A stretch of DNA of 64,000 nt, from positions 5,169,501 to 5,233,500 of the forward strand of contig NZ_CP109583.1 in assembly GCF_036250755.1 (NCBI RefSeq), in the 5' to 3' direction. Of this stretch, positions 47,125-58,811 are shown piece after piece. Under the pieces are notes generated by a model. The model had not been told where the DNA came from and made no database searches. It was given only the letters and a program-made list of their open reading frames with translations. How positions within the stretch are numbered: the first letter of the stretch is position 1; every line of letters starts with the position of its first letter. The position numbers and the translations under genes were made by a program. The DNA comes from Streptomyces uncialis (GTDB taxonomy: Bacteria; Actinomycetota; Actinomycetes; Streptomycetales; Streptomycetaceae).

Positions 47125-47130
47125 TAGGCT
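47125..47130 (+). promoter_or_regulatory. Candidate -10 element for a leaderless host nth transcript
   Basis: TAGGCT lies 6 bases before GTG 47137, with no ribosome-binding site between. The element-borne nth copy has TACGCT at the matching place (57938). Confidence 0.35.
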
Positions 47131-47136
47131 GGCCGG

Positions 47137-48078
47137 GTGTCCAAATCGCCGGTGAGAGCACAGGCCAAGGGGGCTGGGGAGGTGACGGTGCGCAGTGATT
47201 CCGCTGTGGGCGAACATTCGTCCGGGCCTGTCGCAAATGCGGCAAAACGGTCGGGTGGTTCGAGTGGCAGGAGTGGTTCGGGTGCTGGCGCGACGTCGTC
47301 CGGCGAGGCTCCGGTGACGGCCTCCGGCGCGGCGTCGACCAGCGATTCCGGAGGGGCCGCGGGGCGGGACGGGTCGGCCGCCGGGTCGGCTGCGGGAGCG
47401 TCCGGGGGCGCCCCGGCTGGTGCGTCCGGCGGTGCGCCCGCCAAGAGGTCCGCCAAGGCGCCCGCGAAGGCATCCAGGAAGGCGCCCGCGAAGGCGTCCA
47501 CCGAGGCGGCCGCGAAGGCTGAGGCGAAGGGGGCGTCCAAGGCACCCCCCAAAGCCGCGGCGAAGGGGGCGTCCAAGGAGCCCGCCAAGGCACCCGCCAA
47601 GGAGCCCGCCAAGGCGCCCGCCAAGAGCTCCGCGAAGCCACCCGTGAAGGCGGCACGCGGCGAGTCCCGTACCGCTCTCGTGCGGCGGGCGCGGCGGATC
47701 AACCGGGAGCTGGCCGAGGTCTATCCCTACGCGCACCCCGAGCTGGACTTCGAGGACAGCTTCCAGCTCCTCGTGGCCACGGTCCTGTCCGCGCAGACCA
47801 CGGACTTGCGGGTCAACCAGACCACCCCGGCCCTCTTCGCCGCGTACCCGGCCCCCGAGGACCTCGCCGCCGCCGACCCCGCGCGCGTGGAGGAACTGAT
47901 CCGGCCCACCGGGTTCTTCCGGGCCAAGACCAGGTCGATCATCGGGCTCTCCACGGCCCTGCGCGACGACTTCGGGGGCGAGGTCCCGGGCGAGCTCAAG
48001 GACCTGGTCAAGCTGCCCGGGGTGGGCCGCAAGACGGCGTTCGTGGTGCTCGGCAATGCCTTCGGGTTCGCCACTTAG
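47137..48078 (+). pseudogene. nth: Host nth endonuclease III, 3'-truncated by element insertion
   Basis: The 313-aa product has about 175 residues of Ala/Lys/Pro-rich low-complexity tail ([15 protein letters not shown], histone-H1-like). The N-terminal part of endonuclease III follows: [29 protein letters not shown] and the HhH with catalytic Lys, [17 protein letters not shown]. After GNAFG the frame enters the element and stops (FGFAT). It lacks the catalytic Asp segment (TVDTHFGRL) and the four Fe-S cysteines, so it cannot be an active glycosylase. The missing 3' half is at 58419-58811, now fused to an element-borne 5' half. Confidence 0.9.
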
Positions 48079-48092
48079 GTACCACGGTCTTA
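48059..48092. other. attL junction
   Basis: Host nth sequence up to the core CCTTCGGG, then the element P' arm (GCCACTTAGGTACCACGGTC). The inverted counterpart of this arm is in attR at about 58389-58416, reading ATTAGCACCATGGTC on the minus strand. Paired arms around a short core are typical for serine integrase attP sites. Confidence 0.75.
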
Positions 48093-48154
48093 ACAGACTC
48101 GCTCCCTCCTAAGTAGCGGCCCGCAGGGGTCACTACGACCCCAGGAGACAGAGC

Positions 48155-49939
48155 GTGTCCACTACTCAGCTTGCCGACGTACCGGCTAGCTTCCTCTCGG
48201 CCCCGGCCCTTGAGGCCGTTGCTGTCGGCTACGTCCGCCAGTCGTCGGCCAAGTCCAACAAGACAGAGGCATCCCCCCTCACACAGCGCGCAGCCATCGA
48301 GACGCGGGCCGCTGAGCTGAACGCGCGGTTCGTCCGGCACTACGAGGACATAGGCGTCTCCGGCTGGAACCCCGACGCCGAACGCCCCGGCTTTGAGGAC
48401 ATGCTGAAGGCCGCCCGCGCTGGCGCGTTCAACATGCTGATCGTCTACGACATCAGCCGCTTTTCCCGTCGTGAAGTAGTGGACGCGATTCCTATCGTCA
48501 CCGAACTTCACAGACTCGGCGTGACGATTGTCAGTGTCTGCGACGGCGTGTTCGCCCCGCGCGACACAATGGCGCTCATTTACCTAATCATGCGGCTTGA
48601 CGCTGCCAATAAGGAATCGGCGGTCAAGTCCAAGAAGGTGCGCGACATAAAGGCGGCGCAGCGCGCTATGGGCTCATGGCTTGGGGGGCAAACCCCGTAC
48701 GGTCTCGACGGCGAGAAGTACACGGCGGGAAAGCTCGACCTTATGCGTCTCGTCCACAACAAGGATGAGGCTGCAAACCTCCGCCGCATTGGCGCACTCA
48801 TCATCAAGCACATGCACGACCCGGTTACTCGCAAGCCTGGCCAGCGAAACCCCGGCACCCTCTCCGCGCTGTGCGACGACATGAATGCGAAGGGCATACC
48901 GACGCGTGGTCAGCGCACGGGGAAGGAACGGAAAAATTCCACTTGGCAGATTCGTACGCTCAAGTGGATTCTTCTCAATCCCTCTGTCGCCGGTATGCGC
49001 GCAGAGCCGATTTACAAGCTGCGCGACAACGGCACCCGGACTAGCACTCTGATCGGGTACCGGATCATCCGGGATGAGGACGGCCGCCCGGAAATGAGCT
49101 GTGAGCCGATCATTCCCCCGGCTCAATGGTTCATCATCCGGGATTGGCTGTTGGGGCGTGGCCAGGGCGAGGGGGTGGCGCACGGAACCTCTCTCCTTAG
49201 CGGCCTGCGGAGTGCTCCCCGTACACCGGTTCTCACGTGTGAATGCGGACGGCCCGGTAAGGCACAGAACAGCGGAGACAAGCCGGTGTATCTATGCACC
49301 CGAGGGACGACCGCTGCGACCAACGGCGACCACTCGGGGCTGAACAGGGTGATGCAAAGCCACCTCGATGACTACGTGGCGCGGCGCATCTTCGGTTTGA
49401 TTCAGAGCGCCACAGATGGCACAGCAGACGACGACACGGCGGACATCGTGGCGGAGGCAACGCGCGTGTTCTCACGATCGGTTGAACTGCCCGAGACGGC
49501 CGCAGAGCGCACCGAGGTAGTCACGGAACGGGCCGACGCGAACAACGCGCTGAGCGACCTTTACGACGACCTAGACGCGGGTCTCTATGAGGGCCGCATG
49601 GGACGCGATCGGTTCAAGGTAAAGAAGTCCCGCATTGAGGCCCGACTCAGCGCAGCGGAAACCCGCCTAGAGGAACTGTCCGACCCGGAAGCCGTGGAAC
49701 TCCCCTTCTCCGAATGGCTGGAGGGTTCCGAGGATGGTGACCCCCTTGGTAAGGGTTCGTGGTGGGCAAGGGTGGACATGGCCGACCGGCGCAAGTTCGT
49801 TGAGTTGTTCGTGCGCCGGATCACGGTTACGGCAGTGGCGAACTCACACCGTGGCCGGGTGCGTGGGGGGTACGACGTGTCGTCGCGCATCACGCTGGAA
49901 TTCGTCCGACCGCAGCAGGAGGGAGAGACCGAAGACTGA
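48155..49939 (+). CDS. int: Large serine recombinase (integrase)
   Basis: This 594-aa protein opens its resolvase domain with AVGYVRQSSAKS (catalytic Ser30 in YxRxS), and has MLIVYDISRFSRR and the recombinase domain WLGGQTPYGLDGEKY. The zinc ribbon is CECGRPG...YLC, followed by a long coiled coil (about 455-520). GTG 48155 has AGGAG seven bases upstream. It lies just inside attL, the usual place, and catalyses integration at the CCTTCGGG core in nth. No excision factor is recognised; the small Cys-rich protein downstream is one candidate. Confidence 0.93.
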   Translation: MSTTQLADVPASFLSAPALEAVAVGYVRQSSAKSNKTEASPLTQRAAIETRAAELNARFVRHYEDIGVSGWNPDAERPGFEDMLKAARAGAFNMLIVYDISRFSRREVVDAIPIVTELHRLGVTIVSVCDGVFAPRDTMALIYLIMRLDAANKESAVKSKKVRDIKAAQRAMGSWLGGQTPYGLDGEKYTAGKLDLMRLVHNKDEAANLRRIGALIIKHMHDPVTRKPGQRNPGTLSALCDDMNAKGIPTRGQRTGKERKNSTWQIRTLKWILLNPSVAGMRAEPIYKLRDNGTRTSTLIGYRIIRDEDGRPEMSCEPIIPPAQWFIIRDWLLGRGQGEGVAHGTSLLSGLRSAPRTPVLTCECGRPGKAQNSGDKPVYLCTRGTTAATNGDHSGLNRVMQSHLDDYVARRIFGLIQSATDGTADDDTADIVAEATRVFSRSVELPETAAERTEVVTERADANNALSDLYDDLDAGLYEGRMGRDRFKVKKSRIEARLSAAETRLEELSDPEAVELPFSEWLEGSEDGDPLGKGSWWARVDMADRRKFVELFVRRITVTAVANSHRGRVRGGYDVSSRITLEFVRPQQEGETED

Positions 49940-50200
49940 CGGCCCCTGAGCGGCACTGAGAGCCGTTGAGAGCCCCGGTGAGGGTATTCCCTTGCCGGGG
50001 CTCTCCCGCGTCCACAGGCGGGCGTACGGCCCCTCTCGCACCTGCGCTTGAAGCAAGTGGCCAGCGCACCCGAGAGAGGTTCTGCGGCCTAGCCGGGCTC
50101 GCTGTCCTTAACAAACACCCCCCCCTGTATGGCGAGGTGCCCGCCGAGGGTGCCTTTTCTTTGGCCCGCTTTTGGATTAATCCAAAAAGGAGATCTGCCC

Positions 50201-50332
50201 ATGAGTATCAAGTGCCCTTGCGGTACTCCGCTCCCCCTGTATTACGGGTCTGGACGGCACCCCATCTATTGCAGTCGATCATGCCGCAGCCGCGCCTACT
50301 ACCGGCGCAAGACGTGCGGCGCCGACCGCTAA
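50201..50332 (+). CDS. 43-aa Cys-rich zinc-finger-like protein
   Basis: ATG 50201 follows AAGGAG. The protein reads MSIKCPCGTPLPLYYGSGRH, then YCSRSCRSRAYYRR. Two Cys pairs (CPC, CxxxC) around a short loop suggest a zinc finger with a basic tail. It lies between the integrase and replication genes, where small DNA-binding or excision factors are common. Function unknown. A hairpin (CACACCC...GGGTGTG) follows at about 50335-50360. Confidence 0.6.
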   Translation: MSIKCPCGTPLPLYYGSGRHPIYCSRSCRSRAYYRRKTCGADR

Positions 50333-50380
50333 ACACACCCTAACTGTTTGGGTGTGCTCACCCCGAGAGGAATCCGAGTA

Positions 50381-50605
50381 ATGACCGAAGTAGAAAAGCA
50401 ACGTGCTCGCGTAGACGCGCTCATTGTGTGGGTTGAGGAAAAGGTAGAAGCCCTCAACTGCTACGGCGCTGGCTCGCTAAACCAAACCGACCTGATATTC
50501 CCCGATCCGCACCGGACGACTGATGCTCCCGAGAGCAAGCCGCGCCGTGACCGTAACACCCTCAACACCGCCGCCGCCCTCGCATTTCTGGAGAACGAAA
50601 AGTGA
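50381..50605 (+). CDS. 74-aa protein upstream of the primase/helicase
   Basis: ATG 50381 follows GAGAGGA. The protein begins MTEVEKQRARVDALIVWVEE and ends AALAFLENEK. Its stop overlaps the GTG of the primase/helicase gene, so the two are coupled. No family recognised; perhaps a replication accessory. Confidence 0.6.
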   Translation: MTEVEKQRARVDALIVWVEEKVEALNCYGAGSLNQTDLIFPDPHRTTDAPESKPRRDRNTLNTAAALAFLENEK

Positions 50606-52053
50606 CCACCTTTGGTGACGCCTACTGGGCGCGGCAGCGCGAACTACTAACCATTGACCCCGAGGTTCGGCACGTGAACTTCGCGCGATTTGTTGCCGAC
50701 CAGTGCGCGCACAAATTGCGGCACGTCCAGCACGTCGGCTGGTACCGCTGGAACGGAAGCATCTGGGAGGCGACCGGCGACGATGGTGCGGCAATGCGGG
50801 CCGTCACGGATGCTGCACGAGGCCTCATGTTGCACGGTGCTGAAAATTCCGCCGATATGAATTGGGCCGCAGCGGCAGCAAACAAAATGCTCGTAAACCA
50901 CCAACGGCGCGCCATGGTTTCGGAAATGGCGGTTCTCCCGCAGTTCCGCGCCACGGTCGATGAGCTGGACGCACAGCGGCACCTACTCACTTTCCGGAAC
51001 GGCACGGTGGACCTTCGCACCGGCGCACTCGGCCCCCACGATCCGGCCAACATGCTCACGCAAACGGCGAACGTCGAATATGTGCCCGATGCGGAATGCC
51101 CGCGCTGGCTGCAATTCGTTGAGGAAGTGTTTCCCGGCGAAACCGAGCTACAGCGGTACTATCAGACCTTCCTAGGAATGGCGATTACCGGCGAGGTGCG
51201 AGAGCACGCGCTAGGCGTTTGGTACGGCGAGCACGGCCGGAACGGAAAGGGCGCCACCATTCGCACCATGCAAAAGGTGTTCGGGCACGACGTAGTCCAT
51301 GAGGTGCCGTTTACCATCTTTGAGAACGTGCGCGGTCAGGCCGTTCACACCGAACAAATTGCAGCGCTGCGAGGAAAGCGGCTAGTTGTCGCGCAGGAGG
51401 GTAACCAGGGCGTGCCGATGAATACGGCGCTAATCAAGAATCTTTCCGGCGGGGACCGAATAAGCACGCGCCACCTTCACGGAAAGGTGTTCTCTTTCGA
51501 CCCCACGTTTACCATCGTGCTCGCTACCAACTACCTCCCAGAATTTGGCTCCGGCGGAGCCGCGCTGTGGGCCCGCAGTAAAGCAATGCTGTTCGGCGTC
51601 TCGTTTGCTGACCGGCGCGACCCGGACCTAGAGCCGACCATTCAGGGGCCCGAGCGGGAGGGCGTGGCCGCATGGGTAGTACGCGGTGCCGTCCGGTACT
51701 ACAGCGAGGGGCTGAGCGACCCGCTGAGCGTCGTTGCAGCCACCGAGCAACACAAGGAGGAGGTAGACCCGCTGCGGCCCCTTGTCGAGGAGGTTTTCGC
51801 CTATGACGACGACAGCGAGGTAAGGCGGTCCGATTTCAACCGGGAGTTGAAGGAATGGCGAGAGGCCAACGGCGATAAGTCGGCCAAGTTCTCACCGAGC
51901 AATGTCAAGAACCACCTAAAGACGAACGGGGTTACCGAGGTCCAGCGCAAGGGCAAGGGTTGGATGTACCGGGGTATCTACCTGCTGTCTGAGCCGCCCG
52001 CGCACCTAGCCGATTCGTTCGGGCCGGGCATTCTCGACCAGAGGCAGCGCTGA
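50602..52053 (+). CDS. P4-type primase/helicase
   Basis: This 483-aa protein has a D5/P4-like N-terminal helical domain (FRNGTVDLRTGALGPHDPAN) followed by an SF3-type helicase: Walker A YGEHGRNGKGATIRTM (about 206-221), Walker B-like KRLVVAQEGNQG and IVLATNYLPEF. The C-terminal winged-helix module has SNVKNHLKTNGV. No primase active site is visible, so it may act only as helicase. It implies the element replicates autonomously after excision. A large inverted repeat starts at its stop codon. Confidence 0.88.
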   Translation: MTTFGDAYWARQRELLTIDPEVRHVNFARFVADQCAHKLRHVQHVGWYRWNGSIWEATGDDGAAMRAVTDAARGLMLHGAENSADMNWAAAAANKMLVNHQRRAMVSEMAVLPQFRATVDELDAQRHLLTFRNGTVDLRTGALGPHDPANMLTQTANVEYVPDAECPRWLQFVEEVFPGETELQRYYQTFLGMAITGEVREHALGVWYGEHGRNGKGATIRTMQKVFGHDVVHEVPFTIFENVRGQAVHTEQIAALRGKRLVVAQEGNQGVPMNTALIKNLSGGDRISTRHLHGKVFSFDPTFTIVLATNYLPEFGSGGAALWARSKAMLFGVSFADRRDPDLEPTIQGPEREGVAAWVVRGAVRYYSEGLSDPLSVVAATEQHKEEVDPLRPLVEEVFAYDDDSEVRRSDFNRELKEWREANGDKSAKFSPSNVKNHLKTNGVTEVQRKGKGWMYRGIYLLSEPPAHLADSFGPGILDQRQR

Positions 52054-52190
52054 CAGCGAGAAAGGGTCGCTTTAGCGGAAGGGGTCATAGATTTCTGTGT
52101 CCCTGTAAGTTCTTCCCATATACGTATAGGGAGAACCTACAGGTCACAACAAATCTATGGCCCTCCTGCTAAAGAGCCCCTTTCTCGCTG
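52054..52190. repeat. 137-nt imperfect inverted repeat, candidate replication origin
   Basis: Arms 52054-52121 and 52125-52190 pair over nearly their whole length. Outer CAGCGAGAAAGGG pairs with CCCTTTCTCGCTG, then TTTAGC with GCTAAA, CATAGATTT with AAATCTATG, CCTGTA with TACAGG, and GTTCT with AGAAC, around the AT-rich centre ATACGTAT. I estimate about 85% pairing with a few one-base gaps. It begins directly after the primase/helicase stop, a natural site for an origin; a terminator or regulatory RNA role is also possible. Confidence 0.7.
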
Positions 52191-52199
52191 CGCCCCCCG

Positions 52200-52482
52200 T
52201 CGACCATCACGATCGAGTAACGAGCCCTCGCCGGGGTGTGAAACTCCGTGCCTTTTCCCTCTCTGCCCTTAACAAACCCACCCTCTTGAGAGTGAGGGTG
52301 TTACCTCTCGTCTCCGGGAACTTCGGTGTTCTCCTCTCGGCCGGCGCGTGGCCGGTCGGCTCTCCTCGGCCGGTCCGCCCGTCGGCATAGGCGACCCCTC
52401 ACACTGCGGCTGCTCCCGCAATCCCTGAAATCTTCGGCGAGTTGTAGTCACGCGCGCATAGTCGGCGCACTCCTCCCCGATG
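52200..52482. other. Non-coding stretch after the inverted repeat
   Basis: No supported gene. It contains CCTTAACAAAC (also found at about 50106, after the integrase) followed by a small hairpin CACCCTC...GAGGGTG near 52280-52302. Possibly the rest of the origin or a promoter region. Confidence 0.35.
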
Positions 52483-52538
52483 GGCCCCCTTGCCCGCTGT
52501 GATCTGAGCAGAGATCCGGCGAGTAAGGGGGCCTTTTT
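52483..52538 (+). terminator. Rho-independent terminator or attenuator upstream of the 288-aa gene
   Basis: GGCCCCCTT pairs with AAGGGGGCC, followed by five T (52534-52538). It lies just 22 bp before the next start codon, so it either ends upstream transcription or acts as an attenuator for the following gene. Confidence 0.7.
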
Positions 52539-52559
52539 GTGTACCCGAGAGGAAACCCA

Positions 52560-53426
52560 ATGTTTGAACTTGCTCCCGGCAACGTCCGCATCGCACTGAA
52601 TGCGGCCGACGCCGCTAAGGCCCGTGTCGCTGAGCTAGAGGGGAAGGTGAACCGGGCTAAGCACCCCGATGAAATTCTCACCGATAGCGTTCTAGCCCTC
52701 GGCTCTGGCCCGCTGCATTGTGATCTCGCGCCCGCTATTGCGGCGGAACGATGGGACGGAGTCCGAAAGGCGTACGAGGATTGCGAGGAACTTTCCGAGC
52801 GCTGGCACACCCTAGAAGGTGAGGCGGAGTCGGTACGCGTTAACGCTGTCCGCAAGGGTGCTGAGGCAATCCGTGCGGGCAAGAAGGCTCCGAGCGTGGC
52901 CGCTGCAATTCTGGACGCCGAGACGCAGCTAGAGAGCTGCTCTCTCGTGCTCACGGATGCTGTGGCCGATCTGCGTAAGGCTCGGTCGGCTTATGACGCG
53001 CTCTGGCGTGACCAGAAGTTCCTAGCCCCTTACCGCGATTCCGTGATTGCGGCTTTCAAGGAGCAGCGGGCAAAGGCTGCCGAGGCGTACAGCATCATCG
53101 CCGGTGCTGTAAGCGAGACGCGACGCCGATATGGCACGTTGCACGACCTTACGGTTAACCACCTAGACGCTATCCCGGAGGAGCCTTACAGCTACCTCCC
53201 AATTCGTAGTACCGGATGGGCGCAGGCTGATCTAGAAAATGCTCTTGGGGTTCTCGGCCGACAGGTCAGCGCGACCGATCCGCTACTGTCCGGCGACTTC
53301 CTGACGCTGCCACTAGAAGAGATCGCGGATGCAGCCGAGGAGGTAGCCGACAACATCAAGGGGACGGCTGATCGGCAGAATTACATGGTGCCCCGTGACG
53401 GCATCATCAGTACCCGACTGATTTGA
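52560..53426 (+). CDS. Unknown 288-aa coiled-coil protein
   Basis: ATG 52560 follows GAGAGGAAA. The protein is strongly helical with heptad-like stretches (ADAAKARVAELEGKVNRAKH; later KAPSVAAAILDAETQLE). No enzyme motif or membrane segment. The C-terminal 80 residues are less charged (EEPYSYLPIRSTGWAQADL). It looks like a phage-type structural or scaffold-like accessory, but no family is recognised. A terminator hairpin lies just upstream. Confidence 0.6.
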   Translation: MFELAPGNVRIALNAADAAKARVAELEGKVNRAKHPDEILTDSVLALGSGPLHCDLAPAIAAERWDGVRKAYEDCEELSERWHTLEGEAESVRVNAVRKGAEAIRAGKKAPSVAAAILDAETQLESCSLVLTDAVADLRKARSAYDALWRDQKFLAPYRDSVIAAFKEQRAKAAEAYSIIAGAVSETRRRYGTLHDLTVNHLDAIPEEPYSYLPIRSTGWAQADLENALGVLGRQVSATDPLLSGDFLTLPLEEIADAAEEVADNIKGTADRQNYMVPRDGIISTRLI

Positions 53427-53487
53427 GCAGTGGCGGGGGCGGCCCGGATATACACCGGCCCCGCTGCCATGGGAGGGACCGGCGCTT

Positions 53488-53805
53488 ATGACTTGGAAGT
53501 CCAGTAACCGGCGCGCGGAACTACCCCCCAATTGGGCGGCGCTGCGCCAGCGGGTTATTCGACGGGATAGGGGTTTTTGTAGGGGGGTCCTGTCTGAGGG
53601 TGCCCCCTGCACCTACCCGGGTACGCAGGTGGACCATATCCGCCCCGGTGCGGACCACAGCATGGAGAACTTGCAGCTACTGTGCACTTGGTGCCACAAG
53701 CGGAAGACGCAAGCCGAGTCTCGGGCCGCACGGGCCAACGCCAAGCCTTTGCCGAAAACACATATCAGGCGTGACCAGCGGGAAGCGGCACCCTCGCCCT
53801 GGTGA
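53488..53805 (+). CDS. HNH endonuclease
   Basis: This 105-aa protein has the HNH core: FCRGVL, then TQVDHIRPGADHSMENLQLL and CTWCHKRKTQAE. The H-N-H residues and flanking Cys pairs fit the small phage HNH family that often acts next to terminase or on DNA entry. GGGAGGG lies upstream of ATG 53488. No terminase is recognised nearby. Confidence 0.85.
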   Translation: MTWKSSNRRAELPPNWAALRQRVIRRDRGFCRGVLSEGAPCTYPGTQVDHIRPGADHSMENLQLLCTWCHKRKTQAESRAARANAKPLPKTHIRRDQREAAPSPW

Positions 53806-54061
53806 TCACATGCTTCGCGCTGTGTCAAGGTAAAAGCCGATGTAACTCTACGTAATGCCGGCGCGGGAAGCCGCCTTGGATTTGAAGGTGAGGGGGTGGG
53901 GGGTGACCCCTTTATGGCCCTCTTCCGGACCGCAAGCGTATAGCAGGTCACAAGTTGTACGAGTTACCAAGTCGTCCAACCGTGGAAGGCAAGGCCGACC
54001 TCTCCCCCGCTCTCACAGCGCGTGATATCGACACCGGCCCCGTGCCTGTCGCGTAGATAGC
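53806..54061. other. Gap between HNH gene and DUF397 gene
   Basis: About 260 bp between convergent genes with no supported frame. A hairpin at 54062-54098 closes it on the DUF397 side. Confidence 0.35.
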
Positions 54062-54098
54062 GAACCCCGCCCCTCAGCGGCAGAAAGGGGCGGGGTTC
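54062..54098. terminator. Hairpin downstream of the regulator pair
   Basis: Perfect 13-nt arms (GAACCCCGCCCCT) enclose an 11-nt loop. It lies 27 bp beyond the DUF397 stop on the minus strand. Confidence 0.7.
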
Positions 54099-54124
54099 AA
54101 GGGGGCTTTTCTGGTGCGCGCGGC

Positions 54125-54334
54125 CTACAGCTCCACGCGCTTCGCCAGCGTCACCAGTCCGGCAAACGCCTTGCTCGACACCATGAGGACCGGGCCGTCG
54201 GTGCACTTGCTATCCCGTATGGGAACGGCGCCGGTAGCGGATGCGTGCGCGGGCGCCCACTCGACGCACTGGCCCCCGTTGGGGTCGCTGTATGTGGACT
54301 TGACCCACGTGGTCAGGGAGGAAGTGTTGGTCAT
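54125..54334 (-). CDS. DUF397 protein
   Basis: This 69-aa protein has the DUF397 signature: WVKSTYSDPNGGQCVEWAP and VPIRDSKCTDGPVLMVSSKA. DUF397 genes commonly follow WhiJ-type XRE regulators in Streptomyces and are thought to modulate them. The ATG overlaps the regulator stop (ATGA), so the two are coupled. Confidence 0.9.
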   Translation of the reverse strand: MTNTSSLTTWVKSTYSDPNGGQCVEWAPAHASATGAVPIRDSKCTDGPVLMVSSKAFAGLVTLAKRVEL

Positions 54335-55155
54335 CGCGTGTACTCCTCAAAGGCTGTGCGGATGCGGCGAAGCGTCTTGTCCTGTCCTAGGGCTTCCGCC
54401 CGAAGTCGATCGTAAGTCTCCATGGCGCCGGACGTGATCTTGGGTGCATCTTGCGGCCGTCCACCTTGCGGACCTTCAGCGTGGAGCACCGTAGGCGCGC
54501 GCTCGAAGGTCAACAGTGTGAACGGGCGGCTTGTGACCGGTGTAGCCGAAAACGGGAGAAGTTGCAGAGAGACATTCGGCCGCTCAGCGTCTTCCATCAA
54601 GCTCTGGAGCTGCCGTGCCATCACGCCCTTACCGCCTACCTCTACCCGTAGGCACGCCTCATGGACCACCACCCACAGGGCAGGCGCGGGGGGATCGATG
54701 CGGTCAAGAGTTTCTCGCCGTGCCATCCTTGCGCCGACCTTGGCGTCTACCTGGCTGGCAGTCAGACGAGGGACGCTCATGCGGTACAGCGCACGGGCGT
54801 ACTCCGGTGTCTGCAACAGGCCCATTAGGTACAGCGTGGAGTAGTCGAAGATCCGCTGTGCCTTGCGTTCGTGTTGGAGATACGGCACGAACCATGACGG
54901 GTGGTCGCCCTCAAGGGCGTGTACGTACTGCCGGTAGAGCAACGTCCCAGTGCCGAAGACGCGGTCACACCCCACAGCGAACTTCTCGCTCGGCTCCATC
55001 TTGCCGCGCTCCACCTTGGACACATACGCCGCTGAGTATCCAACGGCTGTGCCAAGCCCTGTGGTTGTCATCTTGCGCGCCTTCCGCATCTCCCTTACGT
55101 CCGCACCGAAAGTCTCAAAGGGAGTCAAAAATTCTGCGGCGCCGTCTTCGTTCAT
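54331..55155 (-). CDS. XRE-family (WhiJ-like, DUF5753) regulator
   Basis: This 274-aa protein has an N-terminal helix-turn-helix (MTTTGLGTAVGYSAAYVSKV, then ERGKMEPSEKFAV) and a DUF5753-type C-terminal domain (LYLMGLLQTPEYARALYRMS; later ERPNVSLQLLPFSATP). The pair with DUF397 is the classic Streptomyces WhiJ-type switch. In this element it is divergent from the small-gene cluster and may act as its repressor. A 15-nt palindrome lies in the gap at 55189. Confidence 0.88.
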   Translation of the reverse strand: MNEDGAAEFLTPFETFGADVREMRKARKMTTTGLGTAVGYSAAYVSKVERGKMEPSEKFAVGCDRVFGTGTLLYRQYVHALEGDHPSWFVPYLQHERKAQRIFDYSTLYLMGLLQTPEYARALYRMSVPRLTASQVDAKVGARMARRETLDRIDPPAPALWVVVHEACLRVEVGGKGVMARQLQSLMEDAERPNVSLQLLPFSATPVTSRPFTLLTFERAPTVLHAEGPQGGRPQDAPKITSGAMETYDRLRAEALGQDKTLRRIRTAFEEYTR

Positions 55156-55188
55156 GTTCTGACCTCCTGCGTTGGCGTCGGCGTGGCA

Positions 55189-55203
55189 TCGAACGATGTT
55201 CGA
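55189..55203. promoter_or_regulatory. Candidate operator of the XRE regulator
   Basis: TCGAACGATGTTCGA is a perfect 6-3-6 palindrome in the 138-bp gap between the divergent XRE gene and the small-gene cluster. GTTCA half-sites follow at about 55219 and 55229. Assignment to this regulator is by position only. Confidence 0.45.
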
Positions 55204-55293
55204 GACTGTGAGAGACGCCGTTCAAAGTCCGTTCAGCTAGCTCTAGTTGTGCTCATCTGGTCACCCGCCGAAACCGGGGAAGGAGGTAGCCGG

Positions 55294-55578
55294 ATGACCA
55301 GGGGTCTCCACATCAGCGGCACAGAGCGCTGCGCCCTACTCCCCAGCGCCGACGTGGCGCCAACACGCACCCCTGCACTGGGACACGTTGAGCAGGCCCC
55401 CGTGGACCCCTTCGCGGGCACAGCGTACGAAGACAGCCCCGAAGGCTGGTGGACGCCCTTCGGGGGCGCCCTGGACGTTGCGTCAGGTGTGGTCTATCTC
55501 CCGCGTGGCTCCATGCACGTGCCGTGCCCCTGGACGGATTGCAAGAACGGGTGTCTAGACACGGAGGGCATGGCATGA
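55294..55578 (+). CDS. 94-aa protein, first of the divergent small-gene cluster
   Basis: AAGGAGGT lies 6 bases before ATG 55294. The protein reads MTRGLHISGTERCALLPSAD and ends with WTDCKNGCLDTEGMA. No family recognised. Its stop overlaps the start of the next gene. Confidence 0.6.
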   Translation: MTRGLHISGTERCALLPSADVAPTRTPALGHVEQAPVDPFAGTAYEDSPEGWWTPFGGALDVASGVVYLPRGSMHVPCPWTDCKNGCLDTEGMA

Positions 55579-55721
55579 CGGCAACGACTCGCAGACGACG
55601 AAACCGACGGCGACGCAAGGTTGTTCAGTGGGCCAACCGCTTCGGGTGGCTCGTGTTCGTCACCACCGTCACCGCGTTGTGCGCGCTGATCATCACCTTC
55701 GCCGCTACCGGCCAACTCTGA
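55575..55721 (+). CDS. 48-aa single-span membrane protein
   Basis: The ATG overlaps the previous stop. A very basic start (TTRRRRNRRRRKVVQWANRF) leads into one TM segment (GWLVFVTTVTALCALIITFA). It could be a small membrane-active or superinfection-type protein; function unknown. Confidence 0.55.
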   Translation: MTATTRRRRNRRRRKVVQWANRFGWLVFVTTVTALCALIITFAATGQL

Positions 55722-55735
55722 AAGGGAACCCCTGC

Positions 55736-55984
55736 ATGGACTTCTCGCCTGTCGGCCCTTCCTACTGGGTGGATGACGAACGCGTCGCAGCCGAGGAGGT
55801 AGCCACAGATTTCGTCAATGCCCTCCGTCGGGTTGAGGTTGATTTTGATGGGATCAGCATTGACCGCCCGTGCGACCGCTGCCACCTGGACGATTACCGG
55901 ATCGCGCTCGGGTTGATCACGTTGGATGAAGCGCGGCGGATGACGGCCACGGTGAACGCCGTACTGGACCGCCTTAACCTCTGA
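55736..55984 (+). CDS. 82-aa protein of the small-gene cluster
   Basis: AAAGGGAA precedes ATG 55736. The sequence is acidic, with YWVDDERVAAEEVATDFVNA and CDRCHLDDYRIALGLITLDE. No family recognised. It lies 14 bp after the membrane-protein gene. Confidence 0.6.
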   Translation: MDFSPVGPSYWVDDERVAAEEVATDFVNALRRVEVDFDGISIDRPCDRCHLDDYRIALGLITLDEARRMTATVNAVLDRLNL

Positions 55985-56121
55985 TCTTCTACCCCGCCGG
56001 ACGTAGCCGAATTCGGATTCCCGGTGAGGGTGGGGGCAAGCCCCCGCCTTGTGGGCGGGTAGATAGCGCACAACGGCGCGGGGAACGAATCTCCGCATTG
56101 CGATGTACGGAGGTAAGGAAA

Positions 56122-56361
56122 ATGGCGACGCCCAACCTGTATTCCCTCCCCACCGAGGGGGCCGCCTTCACGACCTACTGCGGTGGCAATCTCGGCGGCG
56201 AGAACGAGACGTGCGCGAAGGTTGCCGCTATCCCCGGTGCCGACGCATTCGTTGTCCGTGACACCAAAGAGGCCTCCGGCGGTGTGGAGCTGCGGTTCAC
56301 CGGCTCCGAGATGGACACGCTGGCCGTTCAGTGGGTCCGCGAACGGGGACTGACGGCCTAG
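56122..56361 (+). CDS. DUF397-like protein, second in the element
   Basis: GGAGGTAAGGA precedes ATG 56122. The 79-aa product has DAFVVRDTKEASGGVELRF and TGSEMDTLAVQW, which resemble the DUF397 core. It has no XRE partner next to it. It might act on the XRE regulator at 54331-55155 as a second modulator, or be a specialised variant. Confidence 0.55.
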   Translation: MATPNLYSLPTEGAAFTTYCGGNLGGENETCAKVAAIPGADAFVVRDTKEASGGVELRFTGSEMDTLAVQWVRERGLTA

Positions 56362-56442
56362 TCTGAGGCCCCCTCGCATCAACGCGGGCCGTCTTCAACG
56401 GACTTGAGGGCGGCCCGCCCTGGCCGAACGGAAAGTCACACC

Positions 56443-56901
56443 ATGGGATGGCACACCAACACGCCCGGACACTGGCACGGGTACGTGTGGACGGGAAGCG
56501 GCAGAGAGCACGCAGACGAATCCTTGCGCCGCCCCGGTTTGGCGCTCAACCAACCTCACACCCAAGCCTTTATCGCGTCCAAGCTTCCGCCCCTCATGAC
56601 TGGCCACTGGCTGTTGAAGCGCAGCCAGACTTCAGCTAGTCGGACGTGGACGGACGTAGCCGAAGCCGTTTCGTGGTTGATGGCGCAGTACGACAAGAAC
56701 CCGCCGATGAAACGCGAAGACGGGTTGAAAGCGTACGTCGATCGAGAGCGCTGGAAGGCAGGAGCGTGCGACCGCCTGCCCGGCGGAACGGATATCCACT
56801 GGTGTTACTGGACTCAGAGTGGTTCCAAGACGTCATTCGCCGCCGTGTGCTGTCCGAATCATTTCCACCCCGAAATCCCGTGCCCGCTCCCACCCTCATG
56901 A
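56443..56901 (+). CDS. Unknown 152-aa protein upstream of the JmjC/cupin gene
   Basis: ATG 56443 follows GGAAAG. The protein is rich in Trp, His and Cys: WHTNTPGHWHGYVWTGSGRE, later WCYWTQSGSKTSFAAVCC. No family recognised. It is 27 bp upstream of the JmjC/cupin gene and may be its partner or substrate. Confidence 0.5.
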   Translation: MGWHTNTPGHWHGYVWTGSGREHADESLRRPGLALNQPHTQAFIASKLPPLMTGHWLLKRSQTSASRTWTDVAEAVSWLMAQYDKNPPMKREDGLKAYVDRERWKAGACDRLPGGTDIHWCYWTQSGSKTSFAAVCCPNHFHPEIPCPLPPS

Positions 56902-56928
56902 ATCCGCCCGACTGAAGGAGATCCCGTC

Positions 56929-57843
56929 ATGTCGTTACGGTTCCTACTCCCCGAAAACGGCGTGCACGACCTGATCGAGTCCTGGCCGGACGACCCCCGC
57001 GTATACGAACGGGAGCCCTCGCCCATAGACCGGAGCATCACACCCGAATTCTTCGAGACATGGGCGTTCAGCGGATGCGTACCCGCTGACGAAATCGCTG
57101 TCATGAACCACGGAGCCAACCCGCCCCGCCCCAGCATCAACCCGGCCGGATACAAGACCAACGGCCGAACAGACGGCAAGAAACTCAGGCGGTACTACGA
57201 ACAGGGTTTCACCATCCGGCTGGGGAACCTGCAAAGGGTCGTGCCGTTCCTGCACGCAGTGACACACCAAATTCAGCAGGAAACGGGATTCTCCAACTAC
57301 GTGCACGCGTTCCTGACCCCTCCGGGCGGTCAGGGGCTCCGGCATCACTGGGATCAGCAAATGGCCATCATCGTGCAGATCGCGGGCACGAAGACATGGG
57401 AACTCTGGAAACCGAAATTCCCGGACCCGGTACGGACATACGCGGAGTCCACACGCGTATGGGATGAACGCTGGCGGGCGGAATGGGAAGCCAGCGGGCC
57501 GGACCACACCGTCGATCTGGCCCCGGGGCAGTCCCTCTTGCTCCCGCGCGGATGGGTACACAACCCGCATGCGCGCACCGCCAGCAAAAGCAGCATCCAC
57601 CTTACATTCGCTATCCGGGAGCGAACCCCGCTCTGGCTGGCCGAACAGCTCACCGCCGGTTTGATCGAACAGGCGGAATTCCGCGCCCTGGTCATGCCCT
57701 CGGAAATCCACGGAGCAGGGTTGGCCGCGCGGCTCGAAGACACCCGGGCACGGCTGATCCAGTACCTAGAGACGCTGAACCCGCACGAGCACGTCACGGC
57801 CGTCCGTGCGGCCGCGCGCACCGAGCTGGAGTACACCACCTAG
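56929..57843 (+). CDS. JmjC/cupin (Cupin_4-type) oxygenase
   Basis: This 304-aa protein has the Fe(II)/2-oxoglutarate ligands of ribosomal-oxygenase-type JmjC enzymes: HxD in LRHHWDQQM (about 137-145) and the distal His in [10 protein letters not shown] (about 204-213). [14 protein letters not shown] is typical of the Cupin_4 family. Such enzymes hydroxylate protein side chains. In this element the target is unknown; the small proteins upstream are candidates. GAAGGAGAT lies before ATG 56929. It is unusual cargo for a 10-kb element. Confidence 0.82.
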
Positions 57844-57937
57844 ACCCCAGGAGGCCCCGCCCCTCGGATTCCCCCATGGTCGACGGGCGGGGCGCTCTCA
57901 TGCCCACACACGGGCCATACCGGCCCTCTCTGCCCCG

Positions 57938-57943
57938 TACGCT
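57938..57943 (+). promoter_or_regulatory. Candidate -10 element for the element-borne nth start
   Basis: TACGCT lies 7 bases before ATG 57951 with no ribosome-binding site between, as for the host copy (TAGGCT at 47125). Suggests a leaderless transcript in both; no -35 is obvious. Confidence 0.35.
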
Positions 57944-57950
57944 GGCAGGT

Positions 57951-58811
57951 ATGGCGGAAGAGACCCGGCTAGCTCTCGTACGGCGAGCACGACGCATCAA
58001 CCGTGCCCTTGCCGAGACCTACCCGTACGCGCACTGCGAACTCGACTTCGTGAACGCGTGGCAACTGTTGGTAGCAACGGTGCTCAGCGCGCAGACGACG
58101 GACCTACGGGTAAACCAGGTGACGCCCGGACTGTTCGACAAGTACCTCCGTCCCGCTGATCTCGCCGGGGCTGAGACTGCGGACGTAGAGGCTCTGATCC
58201 GTCCTACGGGGTTCTTCCGGGCCAAGACCCGAAGCATCACCGGCCTAGCCGCTGTCATCGTGGCCGACTACGACGGCATGGTGCCGCGCACCCTCGCTGA
58301 CATGGTGAAACTCCCTGGTGTCGGCCGTAAGACAGCGTTCGTTGTGATGGGCAACGCGTGCGCGTGTGACGAGTGCCGGGCGGGTGCTGGCGACCATGGT
58401 GCTAATGTGCAGACCCCCTTCGGGCGGCCTGGCATCACCGTCGACACGCACTTCGGGCGGCTGGTGCGGCGCTGGAAGTGGACCGCGGAGACCGACCCGG
58501 ACAAGGTCGAGACGGCGGTCGGCGAGCTCTTCCCGCAGAGCGACTGGACGATGCTGTCGCACCGGGTGATCTTCCACGGCCGCCGGATCTGCCACGCCCG
58601 CAAACCCGCCTGCGGCGCCTGCCCGATCGCCCCGCTGTGCCCTGCGTACGGGGAGGGCGAGACCGACCCGGACAAGGCCCGCAAGCTGCTGAAGTACGAG
58701 AAGGGCGGCTACCCGGGCCAGCGGCTGAACCCGCCGAAGGAGTATCTGGAGGCGGGCGGTCTGCCCGCGCCCCCGCTCGGTGCGGCCACCGCCTCCGGGA
58801 CGGCCGGATGA
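57951..58811 (+). CDS. nth: Chimeric endonuclease III: element-borne 5' half fused to host 3' half
   Basis: This 286-aa protein carries all Nth essentials: [32 protein letters not shown], HhH with catalytic Lys in [13 protein letters not shown], catalytic Asp in [11 protein letters not shown] and the Fe-S ligands in [17 protein letters not shown]. Bases to 58418 come from the element; from TTC 58419 on they are host. Between GNA and FGRPG there are 20 extra residues ([20 protein letters not shown]), which are the translated attP arm. The host Lys/Ala-rich tail is missing. The element half matches the host half by my estimate at 65-70% of residues, so it is not a recent duplicate. It should replace the disrupted host enzyme. 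Confidence 0.9.
58389..58424. other. attR junction
   Basis: Element P arm (CGACCATGGTGCTAATGTGC) followed by the core CCTTCGGG and host nth sequence. The arm is the imperfect inverted copy of the P' arm in attL. Here it is translated as part of the 20-residue insertion in Nth. Confidence 0.75.

Follow-up and report, generated by a model that had tools for sequence, protein, structure and literature searches.

A phiC31-like serine integrase element splits nth of Streptomyces uncialis and supplies the N-terminal half of a rebuilt, chimeric gene

Introduction

Phage 21 and e14 use a tyrosine integrase to enter the 3′ end of icd and supply a diverged piece of that gene, which is kept whole. The integrases associated with dusA are also tyrosine recombinases, and the extent of coding replacement is small when SXT/R391 elements enter prfC. 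phiC31 interrupts its own target gene and is not known to restore it. Here we describe an element of Streptomyces uncialis that is inserted in nth, the gene for endonuclease III. It lies in a stretch of 64,000 nucleotides, referred to below as the window (NZ_CP109583.1, positions 5,169,501 to 5,233,500), on contig C1 of a 9.26-Mb genome.

Gene-restoring integration is already established (dusA, PMC4482086; prfC, PMC2791158). Integrases and islands associated with dusA enter the 5′ end of that conserved gene, whose place is taken by sequence that the element supplies; putative promoters are present before and after, and the authors argue that function may be restored (Farrugia et al. 2015, PMC4482086). 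The piece replaced is one beta strand, with no residue known to bind flavin mononucleotide or tRNA. The nth element resembles this system in that the 5′ part of a conserved protein gene is replaced by element sequence, but it replaces half an enzyme, including the catalytic Lys, it uses a serine integrase, and its phage attachment site (attP) lies inside coding sequence. The SXT/R391 integrative and conjugative elements integrate site-specifically at the 5′ end of prfC (PMC2791158); the 5′ part of a conserved gene is again the target, although a tyrosine recombinase is used there and attP is nearly identical to the bacterial site (attB). As at icd, an element-supplied piece keeps an enzyme gene whole, the 3′ end in that case and the N-terminal half in this one. 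The window integrase is homologous to phiC31 Int (40% identity over 96%), but the target gene, which phiC31 is not known to restore, is rebuilt at nth. With SPbeta and spsM in Bacillus (PMC4191935), a prophage lies inside a gene that is regained upon excision; the composite gene is made by excision there, whereas nth should function in both states.

The original prediction for this locus held that gene-restoring insertion, common at tRNA genes, is much rarer in protein genes with long replacement of the N-terminal half. The part lost is supplied in frame, as by elements of the dusA, prfC and icd kind, and with these precedents the kind is not new. What looks new is the replacement of a catalytic half and the dual-coded attP within a coding loop; there are also signs that the swap can be made permanent. 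Literature searches on endonuclease III and integration sites, in a coverage that mostly excludes subscription journals, found no account of such a system. None of the titles listed by wider searches concerned an nth integration site, and 'nth' was not found in the main text of a report on phiC31-family integrases (PMC11530663). Among 15 phage records with an nth-like match (best 60%), none was a Streptomyces phage.

Results

Structure of the nth locus

Two nth-like open reading frames (ORFs) of the same orientation are present in the window, and the interval between them is a 10.36-kb element with a phiC31-like serine integrase. nth is split by this element (47137–58811; features are on the forward strand unless stated) between the codons for Lys and Asp, the catalytic residues of endonuclease III. 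The left copy (47137–48078) encodes 313 residues, made up of a Lys/Ala/Pro-rich tail and the N-terminal half, and ends GNAFGFAT, with a stop three codons beyond FG. As originally predicted, it is without the catalytic Asp and the Fe–S ligands: in domain searches its helix–hairpin–helix (HhH) match, to HhH-GPD, stops at profile position 70 of 108, and no EndIII_4Fe-2S or Fe–S domain was found.

The right copy (57951–58811) is an open frame of 286 residues starting at the ATG at 57951, with a longer start at 57900 possible; an ORF call of 57483–58811 is too long for the gene. Its N-terminal half up to the crossover (57951–58421), containing the HhH and the catalytic Lys, is supplied by the element, and it is completed by the host C-terminal half (58425–58811), with the catalytic Asp and the four Fe–S Cys residues. 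Here the HhH-GPD match reaches position 107 of 108 and is joined by EndIII_4Fe-2S. The features that identify an endonuclease III, HhH-GPD with Lys and Asp and a CX6CX2CX5C cluster, are all found in this chimera but not together in the left remnant, and none of the Lys, Asp and four Cys positions varies across 39 aligned proteins. The crossover core is marked by an identical 8-mer, CCTTCGGG, at 48059–48066 (attL) and 58417–58424 (attR).

Element and host N-terminal halves are 72% identical over 121 residues, and no second complete nth was found in the window genome, where the next-best match is a 30% relative. The insertion in nth, with the gene rebuilt by an element-borne half, is confirmed. 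A diverged 5′ half is fused in frame as foreseen, but the exchange is not a plain half-for-half swap, since the chimera contains a 20-residue insert and has lost the long tail of the host copy. That tail is encoded by repeats of 12-bp period (47393–47675). Its length is not the same in the stump of the window as in that of S. uncialis DCA2648, and none of the fused genes read has it.

Recurrence in other genomes

A scan with the integrase returned eight actinomycete loci and one distant Lachnospiraceae match in genome contigs, and six loci in viral contigs. The layout seen in the window, an insertion within nth codons giving a truncated copy and an in-frame chimera, is repeated in all eight other genomes found in this way, two of which carry nearly the same phage. 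Both copies are on one contig in six of them and are split over contigs in NRRL B-1698 and NRRL WC-3742, the chimera of the latter being cut by the contig start. The one TAG flagged in the NRRL B-1698 match is the stop that closes the open frame after the C-terminal half; a frameshift at the junction was seen in none of the 10 fused genes read. The duplicated arrangement was likewise absent from the 26 intact Streptomyces nth genes taken as relatives without the element (L023–L048, the best-scoring ordinary loci, not a random draw). Two of the element-bearing loci, L008 and L009, are both named S. diastatochromogenes and differ by 12–20% in aligned flank pieces, while a 12.3-kb stretch running from the stump into the prophage is 97.9% identical; judged from these alignments, they are probably different species with the same phage.

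The elements are either about 10 kb in length (CB03234, 10.1 kb; S. albus chlorinus, 10.0 kb) or prophages of about 39–46 kb. The S. uncialis prophage L005 encodes a large terminase, a portal and a major head protein, and the viral contig L014 a large terminase and a portal; with these structural genes, the large elements are phages.

An nth N-half match is present in 388 of 392 genus members sampled, the window genome included (matches sorted by E-value). The same insertion, which it had been proposed to look for at other Streptomyces nth loci, was found: among the matches listed, element-type N-halves occur in 4/392, namely the window genome, CB03234, S. diastatochromogenes ATCC 21481 and S. 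pacificus. A second search centred on S. pacificus covered almost the same 392 genomes without the window genome, so that its 3/392 is not independent. In a protein search, of which the best 120 of 7994 matches were listed, at least 32 element-type proteins stand above a score gap (220 versus 203 bits); of the 32 read, 28 run into a C-half, a number that includes near copies and alternative starts of one gene, and four are N-half only. P0032 (Streptomyces sp. NPDC093675) is an element-type nth with the core TPFPETGL instead of TPFGVPGI and is possibly an old domesticated chimera.

Four genomes in which nth hits were missing or broken were considered as further insertions and set aside, as none has a related integrase at E 1e-40. 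In G130 the gene is split over two contigs, G339 has it broken in three on a single contig, G046 shows nothing beyond a 30% relative and G139 has no nth match; this recheck covered four of the genomes concerned, G001 and G050 having also given no N-half hit. The three pieces in G339 (C11:883122-883894) represent a pseudogene or an assembly error.

The uninserted form

The viral contigs L014 and L015 have no host C-half; the core comes directly after the N-half, and the P′ side and integrase come next. Three of the listed proteins, P0027, P0030 and P0031, come from N-half ORFs that run past the core and stop soon after. On the basis of their sequences, all five are as expected for an uninserted attP. 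Of five virus records searched for nth copies, only that of L014 matched. Scanning viral contigs with nothing but the N-half picked up no relatives, although L014 and L015 encode N-halves.

Modular inheritance and selection

Comparison of the chimeras shows that, in sequence, the N-half follows the integrase and the C-half follows the host. ATCC 21481 and NRRL B-1698 share one N-half sequence (1.00) and have C-halves at 0.77; in the window and S. uncialis DCA2648 it is the C-half that is shared (1.00), with N-halves at 0.83. On either side of the element, the flanks of this second pair are 98.4% identical. Their integrases show 77% identity as proteins, and the element interiors gave no megablast match in the stretch compared. 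We conclude from the matching flanks and differing elements that two strains, belonging to a single species or to closely related ones, have different elements in one and the same codon. Over nine genomes, the identity matrices of integrase and N-half are correlated with r = 0.85, a value reached in 0/5000 permutations; for the stump, the correlation is 0.72 with the C-half and not clear with the element N-half (0.18, p 0.16).

In a tree of 46 N-half rows, built without the partial WC-3742 half, all 10 element halves of the Streptomyces type fall together (100/99), and the Streptacidiphilus element half groups with the stump of its own host (100/98). Such a tree calls for two or more captures, or else for a later gene conversion. 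The element halves of Streptacidiphilus melanogenes and WC-3742 are each 90% identical to their own stump and to one another.

The median ratio of nonsynonymous to synonymous substitution rates (dN/dS) is 0.133 for the element N-halves (36 pairs) and 0.153 for host genes and stumps (45 pairs), which places the phage half-gene under strong purifying selection. A half-gene that should be useless alone and is yet constrained like a whole gene probably does its work after fusion.

The attachment site within codons

Exactly 20 extra residues are found between GNA and FG in all 10 Streptomyces-type element halves, and this insert is absent from the 26 intact Streptomyces genes and from nine of nine remnants. 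In the window, the 20 codons (58359–58418) hold the putative P half-site of attP, whose position, like that of attB, is judged from the junctions and the free-form contigs. The candidate P arm, GACCATGGTGCTAATGTG (58392–58409), provides the codons for D-H-G-A-N-V and is conserved at synonymous sites. Its sequence is similar to the reverse complement of the P′ side, GACCGTGGTACCTAAGTG; the P′ arm, CACTTAGGTACCACGGTC (48072–48089), is inverted relative to it, and the pairing is modest.

The conservation of the insert extends to the choice of codon. Comparing nine rows, with B-1698 excluded as a near copy, codons at shared residues are identical in 230/282 cases (81.6%) within the last 11 codons of the insert versus 2078/3690 (56.3%) in the body of the gene. 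The eight windows best conserved at synonymous sites, of 140 overlapping windows of 11 codons, all start inside the insert, and CAT-GGT-GCY-AAN-GTG occurs within its last 11 codons in 8/10 element halves. The inverted-arm match is fair for L014 (13/1000 shuffles). In ATCC 21481 the best pairing (score 15, 1/1000 shuffles) has an offset different from that of the window and may be another feature.

Alignment to a solved endonuclease III (1p59) places the insert in a 20-residue gap between the helix bearing the HhH Lys and the VDTH motif. The structure predicted for the chimera agrees with this placement, at middling confidence (mean pLDDT, the predicted local distance difference test score, 65.5; predicted template modelling score 0.58).

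The S. pacificus chimera and the eight-residue insert

In S. pacificus (L053, 6075-6929) an open chimeric nth with the insert is present and the element is not. Beside a CRP-type regulator gene, the 5′ tail of what was the host nth can still be made out by eye, and the two genes downstream of the chimera are the same as in the window; we take the neighbouring genes at the two loci to be CRP, Nudix and marP. The genome has one nth match besides the 30% relative, with no second copy of the nth core, and the one related integrase in it, a 40% relative, lies on a different contig. Alone among nine copies, the S. pacificus arm changes GCT to GCC and ACC to GTC, in this one case as expected of a site no longer used. 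The sequence is most simply read as an integration after which the element and the old N-half were deleted, and it seems that the phage half was kept after loss of the phage. The prediction that the enzyme becomes dependent on the element therefore needs amending: the dependence need not be permanent, S. pacificus keeping the chimera without it.

A different insert, of eight residues (RDPKTGEP), is found in the elements of S. melanogenes and NRRL WC-3742. Its 24 bases, A/T-rich in third positions, are identical at 23/24 between the two, a codon bias and identity as expected of a recombination site placed in codons. In a protein search, the eight-residue insert was present in 15/15 proteins scoring at least 98 bits and in 0/5 scoring 88 bits or less (20 proteins read of the best 120 listed). 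Among Kitasatospora proteins, the N-halves with and without the insert differ no more than the C-halves would suggest. P0161, on an 8.84-Mb contig of Kitasatospora sp. MAP12-15, is an N-half with the eight-residue insert that stops shortly past FG, as would be seen if an nth of the insert type had been entered by a further element.

A similar though less strong case for domestication comes from the order-level genus g3, in which an eight-residue insert is found in the single-copy nth of 2/7 genomes searched (for one of the seven, with two nth-like matches, the better match was taken). Compared with the five congeners without it, these two have N-halves at 0.79–0.81 and C-halves at 0.91–0.95; among themselves, the five have N-halves at 0.87–0.95. 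The g3 insert codons are GC-rich, a related integrase was not found on the 15.8-kb contig carrying an insert-type nth, and over the 73 bases immediately before nth a genome with the insert and one without it are 84% identical. These three observations make native length variation possible in g3, and we have not accepted the proposal that the eight-residue insert is always the scar of an element, given the shared upstream DNA and the want of a related integrase nearby.

Promoters

A putative −10 box, TAGGCT (47125–47130), lies 6 nt before the GTG start of the host gene and suggests a leaderless promoter. TAGGCTGGCCGGGTG occurs in seven loci and a variant of one to two bases in three, that is in 10 of the 13 loci examined; the anchor gave no match in the remaining three. 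On the element, the putative box TACGCT (57938–57943) ends 7 nt before the ATG of the chimera and resembles the host TAGGCTGGCCGG-GTG. TANNCT is present 6–7 nt 5′ of the ATG in S. melanogenes and in each of the seven further fused genes from Streptomyces for which upstream DNA is present; it was not evident upstream of the N-halves in L014 and L015. This conservation suggests leaderless transcription of the fused gene. A GC-rich hairpin before the chimera (57854–57893; −27.1 kcal/mol, z −1.64, 13/200 shuffles folding as well) is a possible, weak terminator.

The element

The integrase (48155–49939, 594 residues; PF00239 and PF07508) has the Resolvase and Recombinase domains, the length of about 600 residues and the homology to phiC31 Int that characterise the phiC31 type; the domain search gave no separate match for a zinc ribbon or coiled coil. 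It is followed by a phage-type D5_N primase/helicase-like protein (50602–52053), an HNH endonuclease (53488–53805) best matched by phrog_333, a helix–turn–helix/DUF5753 regulator (54331–55155, reverse strand) and a JmjC_2/cupin protein (56929–57843). Beside the regulator is a 69-residue ORF, presumably DUF397-like, and both have relatives in the ATCC 21481 prophage. So does the JmjC protein, whose relative is also placed between the regulator and the nth half. No FtsK/Tra protein was found among the 10 element proteins scanned. Actinomycete integrative and conjugative elements are defined by an FtsK-like Tra protein and a tyrosine integrase, and this identity is rejected for an element with a serine integrase and no Tra/FtsK seen.

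Whether the element is a defective prophage that has lost its structural genes, or a satellite with a life cycle of its own, is finely balanced, and we put the former at slightly below an even chance. Its early and lysogeny genes are related to those of the 40-kb ATCC 21481 prophage (primase 36%, small ORF 51%, regulator 34%, JmjC 26%), and no capsid, portal or large terminase was found among the 10 ORFs scanned, the sole packaging-like match being the weaker one of the HNH protein to a terminase small subunit family. Two further elements of 10.0–10.1 kb with mostly different cargo fit a size class of its own instead. These two, L004 and L006, have a few small ORFs in common, and share with the window element the integrase, the N-half and a distant regulator and nothing else. 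The choice leaves the nth mechanism unchanged.

Discussion

We consider it very likely that these elements are a family of serine-integrase phages and small elements that use nth as attB, supply its N-terminal half and carry an attP arm in codons. A phiC31-like integrase would join the attP of the element, a temperate phage or phage-derived, with an attB of conserved nth codons (GNA-FG) between the catalytic Lys in the HhH and the catalytic Asp. Hard against attP, the element would bear an nth N-half with its own, probably leaderless, promoter, one attP half-site being written as in-frame codons of the 20-residue insert. Integration would then yield the host stump at attL and, at attR, a complete hybrid nth under the control of the element. 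The host gene would be regained on excision, and if the body of the element were deleted, the hybrid could stay on for good, as may have happened in S. pacificus. The sequences themselves show the layout and reading frame, the modular inheritance, the free attP form, the selection and a species that has the chimera but not the element; that recombination, expression and enzyme activity take place, that the insertion is reversible and that a deletion occurred are steps that we infer from them.

Both N-halves are nth and the right one could be a pseudogene, so that a duplicated or transferred fragment might have come to lie beside an unrelated integrase in an accidental, non-functional fusion. 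We regard this as most improbable: codon, core and frame are the same in 8/8 other genomes, the N-half is inherited together with the integrase, dN/dS is about 0.13, and a free attP form exists. Scarcely more probable is that the attP-encoded loop inactivates or alters the enzyme, leaving lysogens nth-null or changed to the gain of the phage through altered repair. The insert is long and close to the catalytic helices, and the Lys/Ala/Pro-rich tail is lost as well; nevertheless, the catalytic and cluster residues are invariant, purifying selection is like that on the host gene, the insert falls in the gap between HhH and VDTH in the 1p59 alignment, and S. pacificus has kept the chimera as its only nth.

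Some observations weigh against the phage-family interpretation. The integrase also correlates weakly with the C-half (r 0.41, p 0.012; nine genomes). By shuffling, the inverted-arm match is modest for the window (61/1000 as good) and S. melanogenes (34/1000) and absent for L015 (470/1000). The AlphaFold model of the chimera is of only middling confidence and too weak to place the loop; the Streptomyces case of domestication comes from one draft genome; and excision in the window strain and the enzyme activity of the chimera are presumed from sequence.

We suggest tentatively, and with rather less than even expectation, that phages are a recurring engine of domain swapping for a DNA-repair enzyme, with a dual-coded attP, an exchange of the catalytic N-half at each integration, and loss of the element fixing the swap in the host lineage. 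Besides S. pacificus, this would draw on the eight-residue inserts in the elements of S. melanogenes and NRRL WC-3742 and in nth of the two g3 genomes. If so, exchange of the N-half may have shaped nth across actinomycetes and may explain odd nth alleles and indels in their genomes. A phage could safely use a site in mid-gene between two catalytic residues by bringing a spare half-enzyme and placing attP in a tolerated stretch of the protein, and a serine integrase with its attB in a conserved gene is a possible genetic tool. Loss of the prophage would then be a route to a permanent chimeric core gene.

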